Shown one piece after another: positions 14,401-51,354 of a stretch of DNA of 64,000 nt. This DNA is from Tubiluchus corallicola (taxonomy: Eukaryota; Priapulida; Priapulimorpha; Priapulimorphida; Tubiluchidae). Both the position numbers and the translations under genes were made by a program. A model generated the notes under the pieces. That model was not told where the DNA came from, ran no database searches, and saw only the letters and a program-made list of their open reading frames with translations. Location: NCBI GenBank assembly GCA_030141605.1, contig JAQGDQ010000175.1:186001-250000 (forward strand). The letters run 5' to 3'. Position 1 is the stretch's first letter. Every line of letters begins with the position of its first letter.

Positions 14401-17400
14401 AAAAACTTAACTAACCATCTTTGAGCACAGCCAGTTATAACATCACAAATGAACAGAATTCCTCAAGGCAGAAACCTTTCACAAGTGTGTTACACGTGTT
14501 TACAGAAGTGAAAATTTATATACAGTGTTACTGTATAGCACTGACTATGATTTATGCCAACTTAGCAATTATGTGCCAGTTTTAACATCTATAACGTTGT
14601 TGATTATCATGTACCTGTTTTAACATCTATAACGTTGTTGATTATCATGTGCCTGTTTTAACATCTATAACGTTGTTGATTATCATGGGCCTGTTTTAAC
14701 ATCTATAACGTTGTTGATTATCATGGGCCTGTTTTAACATCTATAAAATTCTTGACATAATACTGGGCATTTCGATTGTCATGCCTAATGTGCTTGTTTA
14801 AATTGCATTGAAAGGATATGAAAAATCACTCAATATAGCAAAATTTATTAAATAAATTTTTTTCATCGTGTGTATAACGATGCAGTAAATGTTATTAAAT
14901 TCAAAAGTGCAGTATTATTATTTTAATGGTGTTACACTGCATTAGCCTTTATATGAGTTTTGTGTTGCATCTTTCTGCGAGCTTAACAACCACTAAACTA
15001 AAGAATTTGGACTTGAGCAATGAGCAGACATAGATAAGAACTTGGACTAGCGGAATAGGAGCTAACTACTTCAGTGATTAAAGACAGTGCATCCAGAAAT
15101 ATTCTCAACATAATTACCGACAATCCTAGCTCTCCTGCTTTACAAATAGATCGATGCATTAGATCTTCAACATCTCTGCTTGTTGTCTGTTGTATTTTAT
15201 ACAACCAACCAAGAGCATGCTGCAAGCAGACATTGTCATTCGATTCCTGCGCCATACGAATGGCTTCATTTACAGCAGCTAGCGCCTCCTGCCTGCCAAA
15301 ATTAAGAGCAGTTTGAAAAGTAATTCCCTCAAACGTAATAATTATTTTGAAAAAAATGCAATCAAATTACTTGCCTATAAAAACTTGTTTAAACTTACCT
15401 ATGTCCAAATCGATAATGAAGTGCAGTAAGATTCAAAGCTGCATATCGAAAGCTGCGTCCAGCTTCCTCCCGAGATGTCTTTGTATCATATGAGTTTAGG
15501 GAACATCGGTCAAAATAATGATGCAAACTATCAACTGCTAGGCAGTAATCATGAAGCCGCAAGCTATTCAGATAACTAAGAAAATGCTGCAATAAAAATT
15601 ACTGGTATAAATCACATTGAAATTAAAATCTTATCTTTTATAATATAGAAAGTTTGTATCATTAATACATGGTTTTAGCAACGTACACATATAATATTAT
15701 TATGTTTAATTTAAAAGCAAAGCAATTAAAATTTTCTGCTACAGATCAGCAGAAAAATTGCAAAAACATTAATAAAAAAATAATGTCAATAGGTGTGTGA
15801 AACACCATCATTTTAGGTCTGTAACGATACACCCAAGTCACGATACTAACCTCATGATACAATACGCATGTTAATACACCAGAGTTTATGTTTGCAGGCT
15901 TATAAAAAAAACTAGATGAAGCAGTTGATAATAAATGCTAAATCAACAAACTGGTTCATTTTTACCTATTACTTGCATAATGTGTAGGCTATTGTTTGCG
16001 TTGTAAACCACCAGAAAAGCAAAACAAATCATATCAAACGCTTTAGGTTTAAAAGTTGCTTATGCATTTTCTGTTTCGTGTTTGCCATTTTACGAGTTTA
16101 TATGCAAACAACGTAACTAACTACTTGTCAAACACCTTGTCAATCGTTTTAGTGTCTGTATCAAGTCAACTGTATCAACTGCACTGATTGCACGGTATCT
16201 ACTACACTTACACTAAACAGTTTTATCTTGATTCACTTCAAATTGTAGGATCAAGTGTGTGCTAATTTGCTGGATATCATTGATTCAGATTATCATGATA
16301 CGGGTGCACTTTGGCGATTTGCATATTGTAATAAAAGATATCATGATACATTGATGTATCATTACAAGCCTACACCATTTGGCATTAAATTTCTGTCACT
16401 GATGTTTCTATATCACAGATGTACTAACTTGTACATTAAGCAGCGGCTTAGCTATTAGTAAATTAAGGTCTCTAATATATAGAAATCTATAATAAAACTT
16501 ACTGCTTCAGCAAGTTCTGGGTTGGATTTGAGTAGCATCCCAAGACGAGACTGCAACTCTTTTGCACTAAGCGCTTGAATTTCATTTCTTTGCAGCAGAA
16601 TGGACTGTTGGGCAATAAAATATTCTGCCTGTTTTTGTGAATACATGCCACTTCGAAAAACACTTGAAATTCTAAACAAACAAATTATAGAAAACTTAAA
16701 ATGTTGACAGCATACCAGAGATTACATAATCATTGTGTTAGGTATTTTGTAGGTTTTGCAATAGAACTTGATAAAAAAGTTTGTAAGCCTGCATTCTATT
16801 TAATTAAAGCAATGATGATAATTAAATAAATGATACTTTACGATTGCTTTACTTAATTTATTCATTTAAATACAGTAAATAACAATTTAGTATCATATAA
16901 TGTTATCAAAGAATTTAAAAAAACTATCCGCAGAAGCTGCCAAAACATCTGGATACTGTGATATGAACTATGGTACATAATTTCATTAGAAAAATAATAT
17001 TTTAACACAACAATAAACAAATTGTAATAATGAAAGAATAAAACAACCTGTCAGAAATTTCTTCTGGCTTTTCAATATGGATGCTTATTTCTGACTCATC
17101 AAGATCATTTCCAAGGTCAGCAATCGATGTTTCAGTGCAGTCTAAGGTTACTTGATGACTTTTATGCATTTTATAATATTTATTAAAAGCCTTACAGAGC
17201 TTCGTTATCTGGCTGAAATACATCTTCTCAAACGATAAATACATCCGTCTGATAAAAAAGCCTAAAACATTGAAATCAGAATTAAAATATATAATATGAG
17301 AAACTGGGATTAAAAATTATAAGTACATAAATAAATTGAAAAATGTTAAAACAAAAAATAAATAAAAATTTGTAGATTTAATTTATTTACAAAAAAACAA

Positions 17401-37477: not shown

Positions 37478-40400
37478 ATGGGTGGTAGACATAGCAAATC
37501 TTTTACGCTACAGTAAGTGATGCTTTTGGCAATCTGTTATATAAACTATTTGTCTATAGGCAACTTTATATGTACGTTGATTAATTTAAACGTGAATTTT
37601 GGACATTTTAAACCACGTTTAATTTGGAGATCTTGGAATAAGCACAAACAACGTTTTCTTTTTAAAGTTTCTGACCTGCCCACATAAACATAAATAGCTA
37701 AGTAGATCACCTCTATCCGAACTTCCGCAAATCATTATAATAGATGTATTCAGATGTGATTTTTATAATTGCTAGATCTAGTAAAATGATAAAGAAATGC
37801 GTCTGTTATAGTGCATTCTGCTATTTTTGCATCAGTGTAACAAAAAATCCAAGTTTACGTACAGGAACCATTACGAGTCTTTCACGCTTGGGTATTCCCC
37901 CACCTACCACGTTGCCTGTCAGCTTGGCAGTTTGCCATATTGGCAACGTGCCAAATCTCATAGCGGAGCATTACACCCAGTGTTGGATTCATTAACGTTT
38001 CATAGGAATTTTTTGTCTTCGTAAAGTTACGATCGCATTTAATAACGTTCTTGGGTTACGAAACCTTTGTGAATTCCCTTGTAAGCCTATGAATGTTCTT
38101 GCGAATAAACGGTTTGAAAGAAAGTCATTTTGTGTTTTTTTATTTCAGGTAGTAACAAAATAAAGTACAGTATATTGCAGTACTTGATATGCTATGGTTC
38201 TTTTGTCGTAAATTTATTATAATTTCTACCAGATTTGTGGTACATAAAATATCAAATTTTCCCGAACTTAAATAACTTGAACTTTTTTGAGTTTACTTTA
38301 CTAGCAGTTTCATTTCTGTTTAAAGTTTTTGTTAGCTAAATAAATAATTGGTTTACTGACTGACATACATTTAACCTTTTATTTTCTAGTTCAAATGGTA
38401 GTGTCCCCTTCAATAAAGACTGTTCTAGAAATGGCTCAGCTGTACATGACAATGATGGTTTCGTAGATCAGGAATTACACTACAATAAGGTGACGGCTAA
38501 GCGTCTTTCAAAAGGATTTGTTCATCCCGCACCCGGAGAACCTCAGAATGGTAGGCATTTAAAAAATTTGATATATTTAATTTTTTTCGCCATGATTCAA
38601 TATGTCATGATAATAGATGTAATCAGTCTTTACTGATTCTTTTTTTATGAGTGCCAATATTATAAGTGTGCAATCATTCTTCTATGGAAATGATAAAAAA
38701 AGACTATTCTGAAACATTCTGTCAGTCTTTTGCAGAACATTGATATATGGAACTGATTTTCATTATTATCATTTATTTTCAACTATAAATATTTCGAACC
38801 ACTAAAGAAAAATGCTAAACAAAGGCAACAAAAGGTTAGAGGATAAAAAAGAAAAACACATGATAACAAGATCCTCATGCGCAAAGCAAATTGACATAGT
38901 TGAAAAATTATACCTAACATACTGCAACAAAGTTACAATAAAAAGAAATTTGTGTCTCCAAGCTATTGCATAAATACAACTTCTAGTTTATTTTGGTTGC
39001 TTTAGTGTTTTTTAATGACATGGAAATTTTCCAAATATTTATGTTCTTGTGTATGTTTTTGACGAATCTTATATCGTCCTATGTATATTTTATTTGAGAA
39101 TTTCCAAAAAAATTTTGTGAGATATTTGATTTGTGAGATATGAGTGAATTTAGATTGCTGCATCTCAAAGTTAGCTGTAAAAGATTTTTGTTAGTGTGAG
39201 AAACCTGTTTTTAAAGAATAGCAAAGCAATTAGGCATCCTGGTGAGTGGATAGGCTCCAAGTGCAGGGTTAGTTTGTTGCTTTTTTATTGCTAAGTTTAT
39301 AACTCGAGTAGCTACCAGGTTGCTATTAGGATAGTAATCCTCATATTTTATTTGCCTAAACATGATAACAATAGCTAAGGATTGCTGAACAGATATTATT
39401 CAAGAAAGCGAGGGCCATCAAGAATCACCCACACACTCAGCATGACCATAGTGGGTGGTCCATCAAGGCGCAGATAGTCGGATAAAACTCCAAAGAAAGT
39501 TGCTCTCTAAGTCTTGCCACTGTTGAACTGACTAGGTTCAATTTGTTGTGCTTTGATTTAGTATTTTAAATATGTTGGTCCTTCAAATTTTGATTTTTGT
39601 TGCTACTTTTTCTTTGACTCAATATGTTTTTAGTTCGATTTAATAATTTTTGACTTGATTTGTAAGTTGAATTGCTCATTGGATGTTCTGTTACAGCAAT
39701 TTTGCTTGTGTCTTAGTACCATAACCACTCCGGTTAAGTTTGCAAGATATATTTTTGTATTTTCTCACCCAAATTCCTATAATCGAAGACTGCTTGCTAA
39801 TTACTATTTAGTTACCTGAAAACCTGTAGGCAGGTTTTGCTCTTTTTTCTATTACAAAGTGCTCTTACAAGGTCACACCAAGAGTTAATTTATTTCTATG
39901 ACGCAATTTCTTTCTTAGCTTGGAATGACATTTTTTACTATACCTGTTTTGAAAGTGCATCAATCTGTTGCTCTGAGTCAAAGACACTTGAAATTATACA
40001 GTTGTTATTAAAAGGTTGGTGGCAGTCACTGTAAAGCAAATTTCCATCCTAGAATAGTGTTCTTGTGAAATATTATTTTCCTTAATAAACTTTCTAATTG
40101 TGATTTAATTGCGTTTAATATCAAACAGGTTTACTGTTTATCAACAAAATATGTTGATCAGGACCTCTCCCACTAAGCCATTGCCAGTCTGCAATATACA
40201 TATGAACTTTCTATTATTAATTATTACAAGTTATAAATAACCATAAAATGGCCTGTAATAATCTGCCTCAGTTCGCATAATAATTTTATGTAGTGTCTAA
40301 GTAGGTGAGTCTAAGCTGTTCACAGTTATGCTTTTTAGAAAAGTTTAAAACATAATAAAATTGTAAGCTATTGTTGTATTTTAGCTTCTTTAAATTGAAA

Positions 40401-43400
40401 ATAATGTTGTTTTTTTAAATATTTTATGACACAAGATCAGATAAGTCATGGTATTTGCAGGAAACTTGAGCTGCATCATTTTTATTTTCTGTATTTTTGC
40501 TTAAAAATCCTTGTACCATTATTTTTAGGAGTTCTTCGTCAGAAAACTAATGTTAATGCTAAATGCAAAAATTTTGAACTTTCTATTTAGGTCCCGACGA
40601 GGTCTTGCCAGCCACAGAATTCTACACATGTGATCCTCACGTCCCAGTTAGACTGCGTATTGGTGACGTTCATCCCTTTTCTGAAAAACCACAATCTGTA
40701 CCGGGGTTGTTAGCAGAGAGAGCAAAAGAGTTTCCTCACCATCCTGCGGTGTCAGTGAAAAGAAATGGAGAGTGGGTGACGTGGACATACAAGCAGTACT
40801 ATGAGGACATAAGAAGAGCTGCTAAGGGCTTTATACAAGTAAGATAATTATGTAGTTCGAAGTTTTGCACTGTTTTTCCTTTTTCCTTTTCTCTTTGAAA
40901 CCCTTTGCTTCATTGACCTCCAGTTAGTAAAGTTTCTATAATGACTAATATCTAAGAGTATTGTTTGCTTTGAGTAACTTGACCTTCTACATTTCTACTG
41001 CTGCTTACAGAACATTATCTATTTGTTTATTGTTTAACAAGACATACCAGTGAGAAATTGTGTTTCAAATTATGTACTTTATGCTTTACTTAAAAAAATT
41101 GTAATTTATTTTAGCTTGGGCTGGAACCATATCATGGTGTTGGTATTCTTGGATTCAACTCACCGGAATGGTTTATATCTGATTTTGCTGCTATATTTGC
41201 TGGGTTAGTTTTTTTTTCTATTTTGACATTTCATTTCAGCCTAGCTACAGTTTATGTTAAGTACTAATACTCTGTTTTCTCTTATTAAATACACATTAGC
41301 AATGCAGGTTTTTATATATTTTAGAGGTCTAGCATCTGGTATATATGCTACTAATTCACCGGAAGCTTGTCAGTTCGTAGCTGCAGACTGCGAGGCTAAC
41401 ATTATCGTTGTTGAAGACGAAAAGCAGCTGATGAAAATCTTACAAGTGAAGAAGGATTTGCCTCATTTAAAAGCGATTGTACAGTATTTAGGAAACCCTC
41501 CAAAAGAAACTGGTGCATACTCCGTAAGTATATTTTATGTTTTTATCAACTTTTTTCTGATAAGTTCATGCTAAAGTAGAGCATGTAATGGCCATTAAGT
41601 AAAGCTAATTGAGAAATTGTTTAACAATAAAATTACTTTTAGTGCTAATAATTGTTTTTCAATAATTTCACTGTAGGAACATCCTGTTTCTCAAAACATT
41701 ATTCAGATAATTTGCACAAACCTTTTTTCAGCATTCTAACTACACTTTTAATTGAAACAAAAAAATCACAACACTCTGACATACAGTAAGCTTTTCACAC
41801 CGAATCTAAAAAAGAGAAATGGCTATTGGCATTATACATTTGATATCAGATTTTTTCCTATTTTTTGTTTGCTGATAATTCATTTCTTTGTTGTTATTTG
41901 TGGAAAATTAAGGTCATGGATTATGTATGTATGTATGTACATATGCATATGTGTGTGTTTGTGTGCATGCGTGCGTGTGTGCATGCGCATGTGTACATGT
42001 GTGTATATATGTGTATGTATTTTTTCTGATGGAATAAAAGCAAAATTATGTTTCATATCCATGTCGATGTGACAGTTCATAAAAGTTGTGCATAACACGC
42101 TATACGCATTATATTTCTATGGAAAGTCGCCGACCCATTTGACAGCTTGTTCTACTCTTTAACTTATTGTGTATTATGTGCTGCTTGACTAACATAAATG
42201 ATGTTTTCGCAATTATGCAGTAAAATTACCCATTGTTAAATATGTTTTAGTGGTCTGAGCTTATGGATTTGGCATCAAGTGTACCTGATGCAGTTTTGGA
42301 TGAGCGAATTCGAACACTTGCACCTAACAAGTGTTGCACTCTTATATATACCTCAGGAACTACAGGAACACCCAAGGGTGTCATGCTCACCCATGATAAT
42401 GTGAGTACTGTACATTGTTTTCTATGTGGCGAAGCTAAATGTTAAGAAGTCCAAAAGCAATATGAGGTTGGAGAGCTACTAAATCACTTTTAATAGCAAG
42501 TGTTAAGCCTAATTTTGTTAAATTTTGTTTTTATAAAATATAATGTTTACATCTCTTCTTTCATGTGTACTATAGATAGTTTTACTTGAGCATTGTGTAA
42601 TCATGTATTTTTCTCTTACAGTTAATCTGGACAGCTAATCGCTGTGTAGAGTCTGTTTTTGGTAATCTTAATCGCAGATGTCAAGATGTTCTTGTCAGCT
42701 ATCTGCCGCTTTCACACATAGCCGCACAGGTACAATCATTTTCTAGTATTCATTAATCCGTGAGTTCAAGTAGTAATAAAATCTAATTACTGTATATCAT
42801 TTGAGTCTAATTAATGCCTATCATTTTGCACTCGTGTCCATTCAAATCATATCAGAGGAAAAGCAAACTATTCATTTAATATAACTCACCTCTGCAGCTC
42901 CTTTCATCATTTCGACACTGATTATGACTTTAGATTGGCAGATTCGTGTAAGGAACCCAAAACTGTGTTATTCATACACTTATTTTCTACACAACTTTTT
43001 TTTGGCTTGTGCTTTAACTATAATCACTATTGCAATGCGATACAACATATATATACTATATACACAATGAGCAAAAACATATAAGCATCAATAGCTAAGG
43101 ATACTAGTATCATGCTATAGAAAAACTCTGTGTTTGCAGACTTGTTTCTCATGAATCCATTCTGAATTTTGTTTTTTAATAACATTAACATACATTTGGA
43201 TTGCTTCTTTAAAGTGATTAATTGTGGCTGCTTCCATGGCCCATTGGGGTAAACAATTCCACAGATCAATTATCCAATGGCTGAAAAAGTATGTTCTTAA
43301 ATCCAGCTTCGCTGTATTCTTGTACAGTTATAACTGGCTTCGCATCGTCCTCCCGTGACTTTTAAATGTGAAGAAGTTTCCAACGTATAAGCATTTTCCT

Positions 43401-46400
43401 ATATAAGAAAGCATAGGCAGTCGGGTACTGGTTGTTCAAGTCTGTTGATATAAAGTTGTGTTAATCTTGGCTTGAAGATGTCAAAAGAGTGGCAGTTATA
43501 CTTTGAAATAAAGGGGCTCAAGATTAACATTCTTATGTATATTATTATTGAATTTCCTAAAACTTGTATATTCTTTTTCATGCACAATGGTTTTAGATTG
43601 CTTCAAAACAGAATATGTTTCAGTACTTTAGTGTTAACTGCACATAGCTCATTTAGCACAAACTGCATAACTTTGTTTTATTTTTGTGTGAATAAATAGA
43701 ATGTGTTACTCATTGCTGCAGCAAGAATATTCTAACTTGCAAATAGTGTCATTTTTCCTTACAGAAAAGTGTAAATAATGTATAGAAATTTTACAAAAAC
43801 AACTCTTTCATGAAATAATTGTTTCAGATGCAGGACTTGTTTTTACCAATTGTAGTTTGTGCTACAGTATGTATTGCTCAGCCAGATGCACTCAAGGTTT
43901 GTATTATTGTGATTACATTACAGCAGCTATCTAAAAACACAGCACTCGCACTTCAGTATTGTTTTGCTTGTGCTGTGTGATTTAGATTGGCTGAATTCAT
44001 TGATTAAAATATTAAACAGATTCATGTACTGTGTTTCAGTTGGTTGATATGTATTGTGGTATATCATTGGCGGCGAATGTTTGTTTTGCTGCTCCTGATG
44101 CATTGAAGGTTTGATATATCTGACATATTGTTGTGTTATACGTACAGCTATTTACGTGTTTCACGTTTTAGCTTAGTTTCTTGCTTTATTAGTGGGGATA
44201 CAGGTTTGATACTCGCATTGCCAGTAGGGAGATGGTGCTTAAGTTGAGCTTAGATAAATATTCTGTGTGTTTGAGGAAAAGATTGCAGATTACTTATAGT
44301 TGCTAAAATAAAAGTAAAGGTGGCCGGTATGCAAATTTTATGTTCATCTAATTCAGACATTGTCTTCTTAATGCTTGGTAGTGCTCGGTCCTATATAAAA
44401 GACTGTAAGATATTATTTTCAAAAGTTCGTCTCTTAAATCGTAATTTTAAATGATACAATTTGCTGACGATCTCTCATTTAGTATTATAATTATTTATCA
44501 TGCTGCTAGATGATACTGCTGTCTGTATTACTAAATGTTGTTGACTAATGGTGCTGCGGGTGAAGGGCGAGGCCGTAGTTTGTGCATCTCTGTTTGTTAT
44601 ATTAGCAAAGAATGTTTCTGTTAAACAGCCCTCAATGATTTGGCTGGAAACTGCTATTACATCATGATGTGTTTCTATATAATATGTTTGTTGTGACATG
44701 GTGTTACGAGTTTAGTTCCATTAAAGCTTCGTAGTTGTGCTTTTCTGGAAAAATTATTTTTAGATTTTGTGATAAAATTTGTTGTTCGTTAGTAATTGCT
44801 GTTCTCTGGTATGGCAAGTGGAACGCATTATTAGTTAATATATTTTTTATCTCATTAAAATTCATTAATTAACAACCTGTTCTCTTTGCCAACAATTTGA
44901 TTAATACTTTTCACTTATTTGAAACGTTTGTGTAATGGGTGTTAATTATTCAGAAATATAGAAAGCATTGTTATTGTTTTTATAATTTGATTTTTTGTCA
45001 TTTAACAGGGTACATTAGTCGATACAATGAAAGAAGTTCGGCCTACAGTATTTATGGGTGTGCCTAGAGTGTTCGAGAAAATTCAGGAGAAAATGCAAGC
45101 AGTAGGTCGCTCAATGACCGGATTAAAAAAAGCAATTGGTACCTGGGCAAAAGAAATCGGATTGAGAGGCAACATGGCATTAGTTAATGGGTAAAGTGTT
45201 TGTAATTATAATAACTCATTTATCCCCACAATAACTCAATGTTCTACCAGTTTGCAGTTATTCAGTTTGTTGTTGAGCTAAATAAATTTACTTTGCAGTT
45301 AGTGGTAAGTGTAAACATTTGCAGCTGTGTAAATATATGTCCTAGTCATCGACTATTACTGTTGTTTTTCACATGCAAACATTCTTTTTATTCTATGCAC
45401 AGAACACGTTTTTTCTGGGCAAACATTTTTTGCGCATGTGGACGATGAATTGCAACATGGCAGCAAAAACTGTGCATAATCATTAGAAAATTCGCTTTAT
45501 TGCTTAATTATTTTAGGTTAGCTTACTCTTTGTGCCATTTAATCAATATTCAAATCTAATTTGTTGATCTACTTGCTTTAGTTAAAAATTAATTCTTGTA
45601 GCGAATCACTACCATGGGGCTGGACGATAGCAAATGTTTTGGTATTCAAAAACATTCGCAAAGCTTTGGGTTTGGACCGTTGTCACATGTTAGTAACTGG
45701 AGCTGCGCCAATTACTCGAGACACACTTGATTATTTCATGAGTATTAATCTTCCTCTGTTTGAGCTCTACGGAATGAGTGAATCAACAGGTGAAAATGTT
45801 TTTCTTATCCGTGTTTGTCTTTTTGAGAGATTTATGCCCATTTTGAGAAAACTTATTTGCACGTTTCGCCCATGCTAAGTCATTACCACATAGTAGTCAT
45901 TTAATTACAAACTTTTCACTTTAGTGGCAATTTTTGGCTTTGTGTAAGATTCTAAATTTTATAAAGAGTTGCTACCTCAGCATTAATCACTGTACACTCA
46001 TATCTCGGTTTGCGGAACCTCATTGTTTAAATGTTGTTACAGAATCTGGTAACAAACCTCAGCTCATCGCAGAAAATGTATTATTTTGTCGATTTGTACC
46101 CAGATGTTGTTTTTTATTGCTAGCAGATCTGTTTTTCTTTCGAGCAGTGCACATTAAAATTGTTTTGTTTGAAAAATACTTGTTCGTACAAATTAGAAAT
46201 TTCATCACAAACCTCCAATCTTTCTATAACAAAATTATCAATTGTCCACTTGAACTTGTTTATAAAGTAATGCATTCTAAAATCATTGCGTTCTTTCATT
46301 TTGCGTGGATTTGACTTTCCACAATATCCCAATTGCTTAGAATATCATGCCGACTGACGCATTTGTACAAACAAAACAGGTGAACTATAATTTGGTCATT

Positions 46401-49400
46401 ACGGTTAACCTATCCATTTATAAGAAACATGTTGCTGTGGACTGACCTGCCAATTAACAACTGTTTGCTGTTAGAATAAAAAATTATATTCAAATTTGCT
46501 GTCTGTTTACTGTTGAGTCATAAAAATTGATTTCATTGATCTGTTTTAGGTCCACATACTGTTAATTTACCTACAGCTATACGGGTTGGCAGTGTTGGCA
46601 GAGTGTTTGTTGGTGCAAGTAATAAAATTTTTGAACCTGATGAAGATGGTGAAGGAGAGGTTAATATATTAGTATTATATTATTTACTAATATTGTCAGT
46701 TAGTCTTCTTTTTAATCAATTATTTGCAAAAACATTGAGCATATTATTAAGTTGATATACAATAATAAGGCAGCTGACAAGAACATATGCAGTCATGAAG
46801 AAAATTATATCCACGTAAGGATTTTTTCTCAAAGGCTGAAATGTGTCACTCTGACTATAGATACAGTGCAAAACTGTATGAATTTTAAACTCTACCTTAC
46901 CATTACGACAGCAGATTGTTTTATGTATTCTGTGGCATATGAACTTTTGCTTTAATTTAACTGATTAAAGTATTGCTTTGCTTCCTTTCTCACGCTATTT
47001 ATTGTAACTAAAGCTGGGAATATTTCATTGTTCATTAGTCCAATTCTTACATTACATTTTTAATGCATGGGACCACTACATCAGGTATTAAATATTTTGT
47101 GAGGGAACATTTTTTGTTGCAAACTTGCTGTGCATTCGTAATTAATTATCATGTGCTCTTTGACAGCTTTAAGAAATCACAAATCTGTCTGTAGTCTTGA
47201 AAAATACAAAAACATAGCACCATAACCGTAAGTGTTTTGAGTCATTATGTCAGTTATTATAAGCATTGAGGTGGGTGTGTTTTGCAGGTTTGTATGCGAG
47301 GTCGTCATGTATTTATTGGTTATTTGGGTGCCAAGCAAAAGACAGAAGAGACCATAGATGAAGATGGTTGGTTACACAGTGGTGATATAGGCAGAGTAGA
47401 TTCTGATGGATATGTTTATATTACCGGCAGGTAATGATATAATTTTACTATTGATAAAAACCCAAGATAAAATGAGTTCTTGACAGATAGCTAATCAACC
47501 TCATCAGCAACAGTAAAATAAGACATTAACTTGTTGTGGTTTGTCAGGCCAAAAGCAACACCAGTTAGGCCAAATCTGAAAGTTTTTCCTATTGCAGGCA
47601 CTAGAGCTGTTTTCTAAGCATAATTCAGATTGTTATTATTTACTGAGGTCATTGAATACAACAAAATCTTCAAAGAAAACATGGTTTTTTATGTGACATT
47701 ATTTGCAAGCAAAATTTCTGCAAAATAACATTACTAGTGCCAAATACCTTGGCATTGCTTTTAGTTAAATACAGTTGGATGTTTGGTTACTTGGCATACA
47801 GCTGTCAACAGTCTCCTAAAATGCACAGTTCATTGTTACAAATTTAAAGTAGTAAATGTGTAGCTTTTGAAATAAATTCAGTGAGCTACAAGACTGTCAC
47901 TTTTATTGGTTTGAAGTTTTCATTTATCAACTATTTATTATAGGATTAAGGAACTTCTTATAACAGCTGGTGGCGAAAATGTTGCTCCTGTGCCGATTGA
48001 GGATAGGATGAAAAAAGAGGTTCCAATTATCAGTAACGTGATGCTTGTGGGTGACAAACGCAAATTCATCTCTATGATCTTTACATTAAAAGTATGTTTG
48101 CTCCAAAAAGTGTCTTAGTTTGTATTTAATTATTTTGCTTATATGCTTATTTTATCATACATTTTCCATTGAATTTTATCAGTTTTTTTACAATTCAGCA
48201 CTCAGCAACTTGCAATCCAACACTCAGCGACAAGGCCTGCGCAATGTAAATCATTTGGGTGGAATCAAAATCAGTCACTTTGTCGAGGATAGTCATCTAT
48301 AACATACCAGCAGACATGTTTCAACTATGTTAAGTTGTGTATAAACCTTCTTCAACATGACAGATAACTATGGGCAGTACAGCAGATAAAACTTCTCAGA
48401 ATGTTTTTAATCAATCCACACCAGGCACTGTTTCACTTCGGTGGCTAAGCAATTTATTGAACTTAAATTGTCCTTTTCTATAGGTCCAGGTTGATTTGGA
48501 AACTGGAGAACCATCTGATAATCTTACAGACTTCACTCGAGATTGGCTGAGAAAATGTGACAGTGCAGCAACAACCACAGCAACAGAAATAATTCACACA
48601 AAGCCAGAAAAGGTGTGGCAAAGCTTTAAACTATTACAACTGTTTTTGACCATGTCATTAAACAAGCAATATCTGCTAACTTTCTTATACAATTTTGAAT
48701 CTTGCAAACCAAAATCCAGCATATAATGGCAAATACTACGCAAATTAGGTGGTCATAGCGAGGGATGAGCCGATCAGAAAAATAATCCACGATCGGCAAG
48801 CAAACTTGCATATCTGAAGAGATCGGAGATCGGAGTCATGATACACTTTAATATCGGTAATGGTAACGTGGCCTAATGATGTGCAGTTAAGTGAAATCAG
48901 ATCGTAATTCATCTTATTTTATGTCGCACTTATCCACCCCTAACCAAACTGTTGCAAAGTAACAAATCAGCTAACCGACAGAAGACGGTTTTTATTCTTT
49001 TCTAATGGATTGTGAGGTGCTAACCTGCATTTAGTTTACATGCTTACTCTGAAAGGTAAAATTAAGCATTTGCAGACACTCAAATTGCTTGCCATTGTTA
49101 TCGCCGGAGTAAAGAAATTACGTCTGATAATGCTCAGCAGCAACCAAGCAAAATGATCTTGAAGGGCTGAACCAGCTGGGATTGTATATACGACTCATGT
49201 CTGTTAGCTTTGGAAAGCTAATATTATCTTAGTGTATTACAAAGAATTACTGGTCTGACTACTATTGCCTATAATTAACAAGTTTACATTCTTTTCATAA
49301 CTTTCATCAGACATCAATTAAAGCAATTAAATAGTTATATTATTAACTTATTTACTTACACTTGACCTACTTTCAACTCTCTGTGATTGGCCATAAGTCT

Positions 49401-51354
49401 AGCACTACTGCTGAACTTTGTGAAACCACATCAGAATTTCTTTGTGTTTCACTTACTACTCACATGTGCATTTAAGCAGTTAATTCAATTAATGGCCATA
49501 AATATTGTAGAAGGCATTTAAATTACAAATTTTCACTGATGCTAAATTTTAAAGTTAACACCTGAAATAAATTTTCGCTCTGAGTACATTTTTTAATAAA
49601 GTTCTTATTTTGTCATTTAGTGTCTAATACGATCAGAATAAACACTTATGGTCATTAATCTCTCCAAAAATGCTTTCTTTATTTAATTTTGACTTCTACA
49701 ATCAGTCTTAAATTCATCGCTTGTTGCGGCAATTGTCATGCCATCATATCAGATTAGGTCTGAGATCGGATATCTGATCGGCCAATAAGCAAAAATAATC
49801 TGATCAGATTGAAAGAAGTTTGACATCCCTGGTTGTAGCAAGATTGGCCCTGGTGCATCATTAAGACTATACAGCAATTTTGGTTGTGCTTTTTTCATTT
49901 TTAACTTTACTTCTTTTGTTAGGTGTTCAAAGCAATTCAGGATGGCGTAGATCGTGCTAATAAAATGGCCGTATCTCGTGCGCAGATCGTACAGAAGTGG
50001 AGAATTCTACCTGGCGACTTTTCCATACCTGGTTTTGAATTAGGTATACCTTTTGCTTTGTTCTGCTGTACTTAATTTGTTATTATTTTATTTCTTCATG
50101 TTAATGTGATTATGTGTTTCTGTAATCTGCTTAGTCAAAACTCAGGAATCATACATAGATTTTATATACATAAGGCAACACAGTTACCCATAAGCACCTC
50201 GTAACAAATACCACAAACAATTTTGTTATATACTTGTGCTTCTTGGCTACTTGTGAATATTTCCTATTTTCAGCTTGCTCTGCTGTTTACAGTACAACAC
50301 TATAGCAAACATGGTTATTGTGCACACATTGGTAATGCGAACTCACAAAAAAGAACAAACTTTCTTCATTCGTTTAATTAATATAATCGCTTTCATTACA
50401 GCGTACTCGGTTATTGCGTATTGCGGACTTTTTGTTGGGCCTATTGCCTGTTTATAATGTATTTAGTTTTTATTGCATACTTTGCCTTTGCTAGCTGTTT
50501 GCAAATTTATTAATGGTTAAATTTAAACCATCATTCTTGGTGCTACAAAAACGTTGTTAACATGCAAATGATGCACTATGCAGAGTTGTTAACACGTCGT
50601 ATCTTAAGGTCATTTTGTCTATTTAGCTGTATTAAAACAATGAGTCACTCCTCCGGGGGTTTCGTGTTTTAAGTACTTAAATTGGCAGCTCACTCCTAAG
50701 ATGAGATGTTTCATCAAGTGATGAATACTACTGCAATTACTTTGCAAAAACTCATACAAGAGCGAAACAGAAATTTTATGCTGCGAAAACTGACTTACTT
50801 TTTTAATCTCATTGATTTTATACTTTATCACATAAGTTACAACTGAAAGTGTGCATGCAATTTAATATGAAACATTCATTAATTTTTAGTTTATTGAAGT
50901 CAAATAAACTACTTTTCATCGAATTTGAATATACTAGAAAGTAGGTGATTTTTGATAGCACATTCCAAAAGCACTTTACATCCTCTATGAAGCCAGATAT
51001 TGTACTTTATTTGTGCAAGTTAATTAATTGCTTGCCCATCTAGCAGTCGTATCCATATTATTAGTCCCATATGCTTATAAAGTAGCTCCGTTATAGAATG
51101 CTTTTTTCTGGGTCCCTAGCAGGTTCTCTGTAATGATATTATACTGTATTTCAATTTAATAGTTTCTATACAGTACTTATTTTTAACTTTTATTTTTCAA
51201 ATGATTAATAAAATATATTTAAACTTTTGTTACCGTAGCAAACTTAATAACTAAATATGTTGACTTGTTGTTCGTAGGTCCAACACTGAAGTTGCGTCGG
51301 CCGATCGTGCACAAGAAATACGCGGACATCATTAATGAAATGTATGCAGAGTAG
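37478..51354 (+). CDS. ACSBG: Bubblegum-family long-chain/very-long-chain acyl-CoA synthetase, 16-exon mRNA plus one alternative exon
   Basis: An ATP-dependent enzyme that activates fatty acids to acyl-CoA through an acyl-AMP intermediate. Exons: 37478-37512, 38390-38550, 40591-40838, 41115-41203, 41325-41523, 42251-42400, 42622-42729, 43828-43896 (8a) or 44040-44108 (8b), 45009-45190, 45602-45789, 46550-46659, 47288-47430, 47944-48091, 48484-48612, 49923-50043, 51278-51354. All junctions are GT-AG and in phase, giving 718 aa (vertebrate ACSBG1/2 are about 670-720). Motifs are [11 protein letters not shown] (277-287, P-loop), [10 protein letters not shown] (321-330), [10 protein letters not shown] (467-476), GWLHSGD (540-546) and [20 protein letters not shown] (562-581). 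The bubblegum subfamily is indicated by the last motif and the C-terminal [15 protein letters not shown]. The predicted N-terminus MGGRHSKS fits N-myristoylation. ATTAAA at 51632-51637 is a weak poly(A) candidate. I cannot choose between ACSBG1 and ACSBG2. Confidence 0.94.
41915..42022. repeat. TG/TATG-rich simple repeat
   Basis: Alternating purine-pyrimidine tract (GTATGTATGTA, TGTGTGTTTGTGTGCATGCG) in ACSBG intron 5. It explains the long low-complexity frames on both strands. Confidence 0.9.
42890..43410 (-). pseudogene. LINE 3'-end remnant inside an ACSBG intron
   Basis: On the minus strand one frame reads [17 protein letters not shown], then [16 protein letters not shown], the usual C-terminal end of CR1/L2-type ORF2 proteins (FF..R....WN.LP...V.A..INSFK). 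It is followed by non-coding 3' sequence that recurs at 55205-55419 and 55888-56010. It is antisense to the gene and decayed. Confidence 0.75.
43828..43896 (+). CDS. ACSBG alternative exon 8a (acyl gate segment, ancestral-like)
   Basis: A 69-nt, phase 0-0 exon encoding 23 residues that begin [10 protein letters not shown] and end IAQPDALK. Acceptor GTTTCAG, donor AAG|GTTTGT. It closely resembles the same segment of vertebrate bubblegum enzymes (AAQM.DIW.PI......AQ.DALKGTLV). It is one of two same-length alternatives; the other starts 143 bp downstream of its end. Confidence 0.9.
44040..44108 (+). CDS. ACSBG alternative exon 8b (duplicated, diverged)
   Basis: Also 69 nt and phase 0-0, encoding 23 residues that begin [10 protein letters not shown] and end FAAPDALK. 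Eleven of 23 residues match exon 8a. Acceptor GTTTCAG, donor AAG|GTTTGA, no stop codon. Use of either exon keeps the protein at 718 aa. Inclusion of both would also stay in frame but would duplicate the segment, so mutual exclusion is expected. Expression is not shown by the sequence. Confidence 0.8.
48760..49831. mobile_element. hAT-like non-autonomous element (about 1.07 kb) in an ACSBG intron
   Basis: The left end GAGGGATGAGCCGATCAG and the reverse complement of the right end, CAGGGATGTCAAACTTC, are inverted, with GATCGG/CCGATC words inside both ends. The flanks GTCATAGC (48752-48759) and GTTGTAGC (49832-49839) match 6 of 8, an aged 8-bp target duplication. No transposase frame remains. 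Confidence 0.75.
50283..50460. repeat. Dispersed repeat, copy 2 of 2
   Basis: Similar to 5641-5825 in the same orientation. Here it lies in the last ACSBG intron. Shared words include TATAGCAAACAT and TACTCGGTTATTGCGTA. Confidence 0.6.

Follow-up and report, generated by a model that had tools for sequence, protein, structure and literature searches.

Does one acyl-CoA synthetase gene of the priapulid Tubiluchus corallicola encode two interchangeable versions of a segment beside its fatty acid pocket, and what would exchanging them alter? The question is raised by two short open segments, termed exons 8a and 8b, within the 64,000 nt stretch of DNA analysed here (the window), which an earlier note took to be mutually exclusive exons of a bubblegum acyl-CoA synthetase.

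The gene and its exon pair

Both the coordinates and the matching splice signals claimed for two adjacent 69 nt phase-0 exons free of stops are confirmed (Table 1). The exon numbering of the earlier note is retained; 38390 marks the first exon traced, and the start of the gene may lie elsewhere. The two exons are tandem, homologous and equal in length and phase, and their splice sites are compatible, TTTCAG acceptors and AAG/GTTTG donors being common to both. The joins 7-8a-9 and 7-8b-9 are in frame and lack stops; the joins 7-8a-8b-9 and 7-9 are also open, such that double inclusion and skipping would each preserve the frame. A recount agrees that 11 of the 23 residues are identical, as are 38 of 69 bases (13, 15 and 10 of 23 at codon positions 1, 2 and 3, respectively). 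The residues that differ include Q/V at position 2, L/C at 6, P/G at 7, C/A at 11 and I/F at 16 (8a/8b).

Table 1. Features of the presumed ACSBG gene and its exon pair in the window (a slash marks a splice junction)
Feature	Position	Strand	Basis
ACSBG coding region, as traced by eye	38390..51354	+	Frames, splice signals, Pfam AMP-binding
First traced exon	38390-38550	+	Frames and splice signals
Constitutive exon 7, contains gate motif LPLSHIAAQ, Q being the last residue	42622..42729	+	Sequence; G motif from PMC3198602 (excerpt)
Intron 7, 1098 nt, CAG/GTACAA ... TTTCAG/	42730..43827	+	Splice signals
Putative alternative exon 8a, 69 nt, 23 codons, phase 0	43828..43896	+	Sequence, similarity scan, bacterial profile
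Intron between 8a and 8b, 143 nt, AAG/GTTTGT ... TTTCAG/	43897..44039	+	Splice signals; in-frame stops if retained
Putative alternative exon 8b, 69 nt, 23 codons, phase 0	44040..44108	+	Sequence, similarity scan, simulation, bacterial profile
Intron 8, 900 nt, AAG/GTTTGA ... TAACAG/	44109..45008	+	Splice signals
Constitutive exon 9	45009..45190	+	Sequence
Last exon, ends with stop TAG	51278-51354	+	Frames and splice signals

The gene is presumed to be a member of the ACSBG (bubblegum) family by reference to animal sequences of that family and to its nearest bacterial relatives. As far as this identification is testable it is supported: the Pfam AMP-binding profile is matched at E = 1.3e-77 by the 8a isoform and 2.8e-77 by the 8b isoform, and the P-loop, gate, A and linker motifs of the AMP-binding fold are all present, including ITGR and a 12-residue string that comes after it in the next exon. 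The sequences closest to the encoded protein, among the matches listed, are bacterial ligases, several of the nearest coming from the group tied to ACSBG1/2 in an excerpt of PMC3131387, where this tie to myxobacteria has weak support (56/0.57).

A genome-wide search outside the window gene returned matches of at most 58% identity, the 58% match spanning 36 residues at an ACSL locus. No close second ACSBG locus was found in the 343.5 Mb genome, and a second search agrees, assembly gaps and the limit on candidates weakening this result; from the assembled sequence, the gene looks single-copy. A search of the same assembly for TTAGG repeats found 318 matches, compared with 150 for the reversed pattern used as control, which on its own would be a slight hint of an arthropod; a COX1 search found no match.

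Other AMP-binding matches were also observed in this genome. Uninterrupted frames of 534-655 aa at G000:C731:11365-12507, C452:89247-90404, C1092:2275-3363 and C230:814-1917, in a genome that is intron-rich, may represent contigs of bacterial origin, or symbionts, within the assembly. A 36 kb run at G000:C1874:3130002-3166191 (+), comprising five AMP-binding matches above 240 bits or near it (211-225) and a shorter one, probably represents acyl-CoA synthetase-like genes clustered in tandem. Within the window itself, an open frame of 252 aa at 1950-2708 presumably resembles NAD(P)HX epimerase, and another at 14998-15366 on the minus strand is taken to resemble anaphase-promoting complex subunit 5.

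Position of the switched segment in the enzyme

In the long-chain synthetase of Thermus the gate motif is 226-VPMFHVNAW-234, with W234 as the gate residue (PMC3198602, excerpt). Counting residues along LPLSHIAAQ equates W234, with one residue of uncertainty, with the Q that ends constitutive exon 7, and Q occupies this place in 36 of 68 bacterial segments retrieved with a pattern limited to Q, R or K there. In the published alignment excerpted from PMC6122825, index 373 is the conserved His and 378 is W234, five columns but four residues apart; PDB alignments of the bacterial profile place the window His on those of FadD5 and FadD13, with a one-residue gap soon after, and together these two features account for the one-residue doubt on the gate position. 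The earlier claim of a gate residue within the switched segment is not borne out by this count, which assigns the gate to the last residue of exon 7, plus or minus one.

In the same excerpt of PMC6122825, index 381 corresponds to luciferase Thr251 and to FadD10 Trp231, the latter 3.7 Å from the acyl end; at index 390 a FAAL Leu lies 7.5 Å from the acyl end. Counting from the His, both indices fall in exon 8, the contacts being transferred by alignment from distant enzymes and the exact residues being good to plus or minus one or two. An AlphaFold model of one bacterial relative, L015 (built on a 20-row alignment drawn from 20 of 80 loci; mean pLDDT 90.2), shows a helix spanning residues 225-238 that starts after the gate His224, and a strand at 241-244. 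By alignment, exon 8 corresponds to L015 residue 229 onward, i.e. most of the gate helix, the turn, the strand and a loop. VIA-align assigns the bacterial relative to the common adenylate-forming fold (best Z 44.2 in the 50 matches listed) and gives no residue-level placement; the Thermus enzyme is absent among those 50, which is no evidence against the correspondence. The gate motif itself would therefore not be switched, and the exchanged part is predicted to be the rest of the gate helix, the turn and the strand adjoining the acyl tail. The proposal that the switch lies at the acyl pocket is thus upheld by alignment to the post-gate helix and by contacts in the published excerpt.

The explanation regarded as probable is that of one ACSBG gene in which an old tandem exon duplication has produced alternative copies that confer two acyl selectivities. 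Each transcript would join exon 7 to exon 9 through either 8a or 8b. The gate motif would be fixed by exon 7, with both isoforms sharing the gate and the catalytic machinery, and exon 8 would contribute the remainder of the gate helix, the turn, the strand and residues flanking the acyl tail. The lining of the acyl pocket would differ between the isoforms at positions 2, 6, 7, 11 and 16, and these, used according to tissue or stage, would probably accept fatty acids unlike in length or shape.

The chance that the switch chiefly affects acyl selectivity is about even. Exclusive exons might instead tune stability, membrane contact or partner binding, as could be argued from the absence of the strand and loop of the segment from the published acyl contacts considered here. 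Against this, PDALK is common to 8a and 8b, and the helix part of the segment (positions 1-10), which maps to the helix with published acyl-tail contacts, contains 8 of the 12 residues that differ; such an effect in place of altered selectivity is considered rather unlikely.

Conservation, age and use of the two exons

An alignment-based genome scan matched at least 597 stretches and 583 relatives, of which the best 80, all bacterial, were kept (top identity 48%). One extraction gave the segment in 69 of these and the profile extraction in 68, 12 being missed by the pattern; the 36 segments preceded by Q form the profile set, and the 32 preceded by R or K were set aside. The bacterial ACSBG-type ligases L015-L027, among the matches listed, are 41-48% identical to the window protein over the searched region and share the same 11-residue string in 10 of 13 cases, those caught by the pattern. 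Seven of the 13 carry the label Deltaproteobacteria, Labilithrix or Desulfobacterales; the other six include Gemmatimonadota and Acidobacteria. These ligases have one segment per gene, by contrast with the exon pair found here, and the span from segment start to VPR, 40 residues in the window gene, is 37 in each of the 36 profile members. Single-protein scans of genome and viral contig collections yielded 29 and 1 stretches fitting the pattern, with no relative among them.

Comparison with the 36 bacterial segments does not sustain the earlier picture of 8a as the family form from which 8b has diverged. Position 7 is P in 30/36, as in 8a, whereas 8b has G; position 16 is F in 33/36, as in 8b, whereas 8a has I; position 11 is G in 35/36 and is C in 8a and A in 8b; and position 1 is M in 20/36, with M in 8a and L in 8b. 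It had also been claimed that 8b keeps only the C-terminal anchor and a few core positions, yet it retains the F at position 16 that 8a has lost. Both exons appear, from these residues, to have moved away from a bacterial-type segment in complementary ways. Scanned with the 36-segment profile, 8a ranks second and 8b fourth of 38,801 stop-free 18-mers in the window, first rank being taken by a segment on the minus strand that corresponds to no known exon; their scores of 10.2 and 7.5 compare with a minimum of 22.7 among the bacterial members.

Vertebrate ACSBG1 and ACSBG2 belong to the same family, but are separate genes instead of exons. The human proteins presumably have G at position 7 in ACSBG1, like 8b, and P in ACSBG2, like 8a. 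Against the human segments, 8b would match ACSBG1 at 13/23 and ACSBG2 at 9/23, and 8a at 12 and 11, respectively, so that only 8b shows a preference. It is conceivable, but doubtful, that the pair is an old animal device, by which one gene splices the two pocket types that vertebrates presumably keep as ACSBG1 (8b-like, G7) and ACSBG2 (8a-like, P7). Were this true, each vertebrate paralogue would represent one half of an ancestral exon switch, whether inherited or evolved anew.

Among the 127,864 23-codon segments on both strands of the window, none apart from 8a matches 8a better than 8b does, with a score of 57 where the next scores 25; among the 104 open frames of the form AG-69-GT in the window, the next best after 8b scores 10. 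No third copy of exon 8 was seen in the window by the segment similarity scan. Of 14 exon entries scanned, 8a and 8b among them, none besides this pair was found to have a comparable duplicate within 36.0-53.0 kb (next best score 30), the exon-13 entry having been read out of frame and the scan covering the exons between the two ends of the traced gene. At the 212 nt offset between the copies, the 20 nt flanks share 8/20 and 8/20 bases on the upstream side and 10/20 and 3/20 on the downstream side, where chance gives a mean of 5.7/20. The likeness of 8a and 8b fades soon beyond the exons and their splice signals, which implies that the duplication is not recent.

A rival reading, in which 8a is constitutive and 8b a duplicate that is decaying or goes unused, the pseudo-exon anticipated by the earlier note, draws on the loss of the P at position 7 and on the 8b donor, whose score of 3.93 is the lowest of 11 introns (the other ten range from 4.10 to 8.71). 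A weak donor fits either a regulated exon or a poor one. Against the rival reading, the 8b frame is open, with its splice signals intact and its F at position 16 retained. The degree of similarity was compared with neutral decay simulated by random mutation at the base composition of the window until 31 bases differed, with 20,000 runs per exon, a procedure that loads all changes onto one copy and ignores indels. Runs starting from 8a remained stop-free in 34% of cases, were stop-free with at least 11 identities in 0.145%, and were stop-free with a score of at least 57 in 0/20,000; for runs from 8b the corresponding results were 34%, 0.095% and 2/20,000. Neutral decay thus rarely reaches the observed similarity without stops, which makes a decaying copy improbable. 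These simulations support coding constraint on both exons, which are best read, on their sequences, as selected coding exons.

It is therefore very probable that 8a and 8b are both functional coding alternatives. Their exclusive use is likely, at a lower level of confidence, and the likeliest reason to expect it is that a doubled core helix would hardly fold. Joint inclusion of both real exons in some or all transcripts, giving a 23-residue insertion, would keep the frame through their equal length and phase, and the 143 nt intron should be spliceable, but it would set a second helix-turn-strand copy inside the core fold near the active site, and both exons match the same family segment, which points to alternatives; it is accordingly given very little credence. 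As to how exclusion might be enforced, no duplex stands out as a competing docking and selector RNA pairing in 18 tests on this one species, the best being reached by 2/60 shuffles.

Relation to other exon switches

The nearest parallel to the exclusive alternatives favoured here is in the ACSL branch. The excerpt of PMC1543647 describes mutually exclusive exons of ACSL1 and ACSL6 that encode 26 residues including D-x4-(F/Y)-LPLAH-x2-E, with stress on the F/Y before LPL. In both families tandem in-frame exons lie at the gate of an acyl-CoA synthetase, their exclusive use being putative in ACSBG. The exchanged parts differ: LPLAH-x2-E is within the ACSL exons, whereas LPLSH of the window gene is in constitutive exon 7 and the next 23 residues are switched, so that the ACSL-type motif is not found within 8a or 8b. 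On the excerpted text, therefore, the earlier statement that the ACSL switch follows the LPL-H motif has to be corrected, and the ACSL exons cover a neighbouring segment rather than the same one.

An ACSL gene of the T. corallicola genome lies on contig C253, where a motif scan of the 9.8 kb locus gave three matches, of which one reads as an exon. This gate exon has 26 codons (GDAVTQSREIMISYLPLAHMFERTVQ), with a Y gate and E replacing D, and the next exon begins CCIYTIGG. Its end is at H+7, that of bubblegum exon 7 at H+4; if the human ACSL exons also end at H+7, the ACSL and ACSBG switched segments overlap by about 3 residues only. The different exon boundary, together with the single gate exon seen at the ACSL locus, supports the suggestion that the bubblegum switch is independent of that in ACSL, and the two are probably neighbours that arose separately.

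The C253 locus also contains a 107 bp tandem repeat of 2.1 copies with 94% matches (L014 6397-6618, G000:C253; gene on the reverse strand). The duplicated stretch takes in an intron end with its TTTCAG acceptor and 14 codons from the start of the post-gate exon (CCIYTIGGCMGFYM), and the extra copy runs into a stop. Its sequence suggests that part of the exon was duplicated recently, at a place adjoining the position of the bubblegum switch.

A further parallel is COQ-2 of Caenorhabditis elegans, in which, according to an excerpt of PMC8659336, exons 6a and 6e are mutually exclusive and set substrate choice via active-site residues. Both are metabolic enzymes with an exon pair at the active site, exclusive use and an effect on substrate being putative for ACSBG; COQ-2, however, is an unrelated enzyme, the isoforms and substrates of which were demonstrated by experiment.

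In agreement with the earlier note, which knew of no described ACSBG case, no ACSBG or bubblegum exon pair was found in the open-licence PMC literature among the matches listed, and annotated isoforms undiscussed in print may exist. By term, the main text of PMC3303723 on exclusive exons of 15 insects contains no bgm, acyl or CG4501; neither ACSL nor ACSBG occurs in that of PMC5740500, which deals with human exclusive exons, and those of PMC7351493 and PMC7570057 hold nothing relevant. Hence this kind of switch is known, from ACSL1/6 and, in the excerpt of PMC8659336, COQ-2, while the family and the switched segment appear to be new.

Loss of bubblegum family function leads to neurodegeneration in flies (PMC11506745, excerpt). 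If the T. corallicola switch is confirmed, a single bubblegum-family gene would set fatty acid selectivity by splicing, and its two natural isoforms, 12 residues apart in one segment of the acyl pocket, would provide a clean test of the determinants of that selectivity. Two neighbouring parts of the acyl-CoA synthetase pocket would then have come under exon switching.
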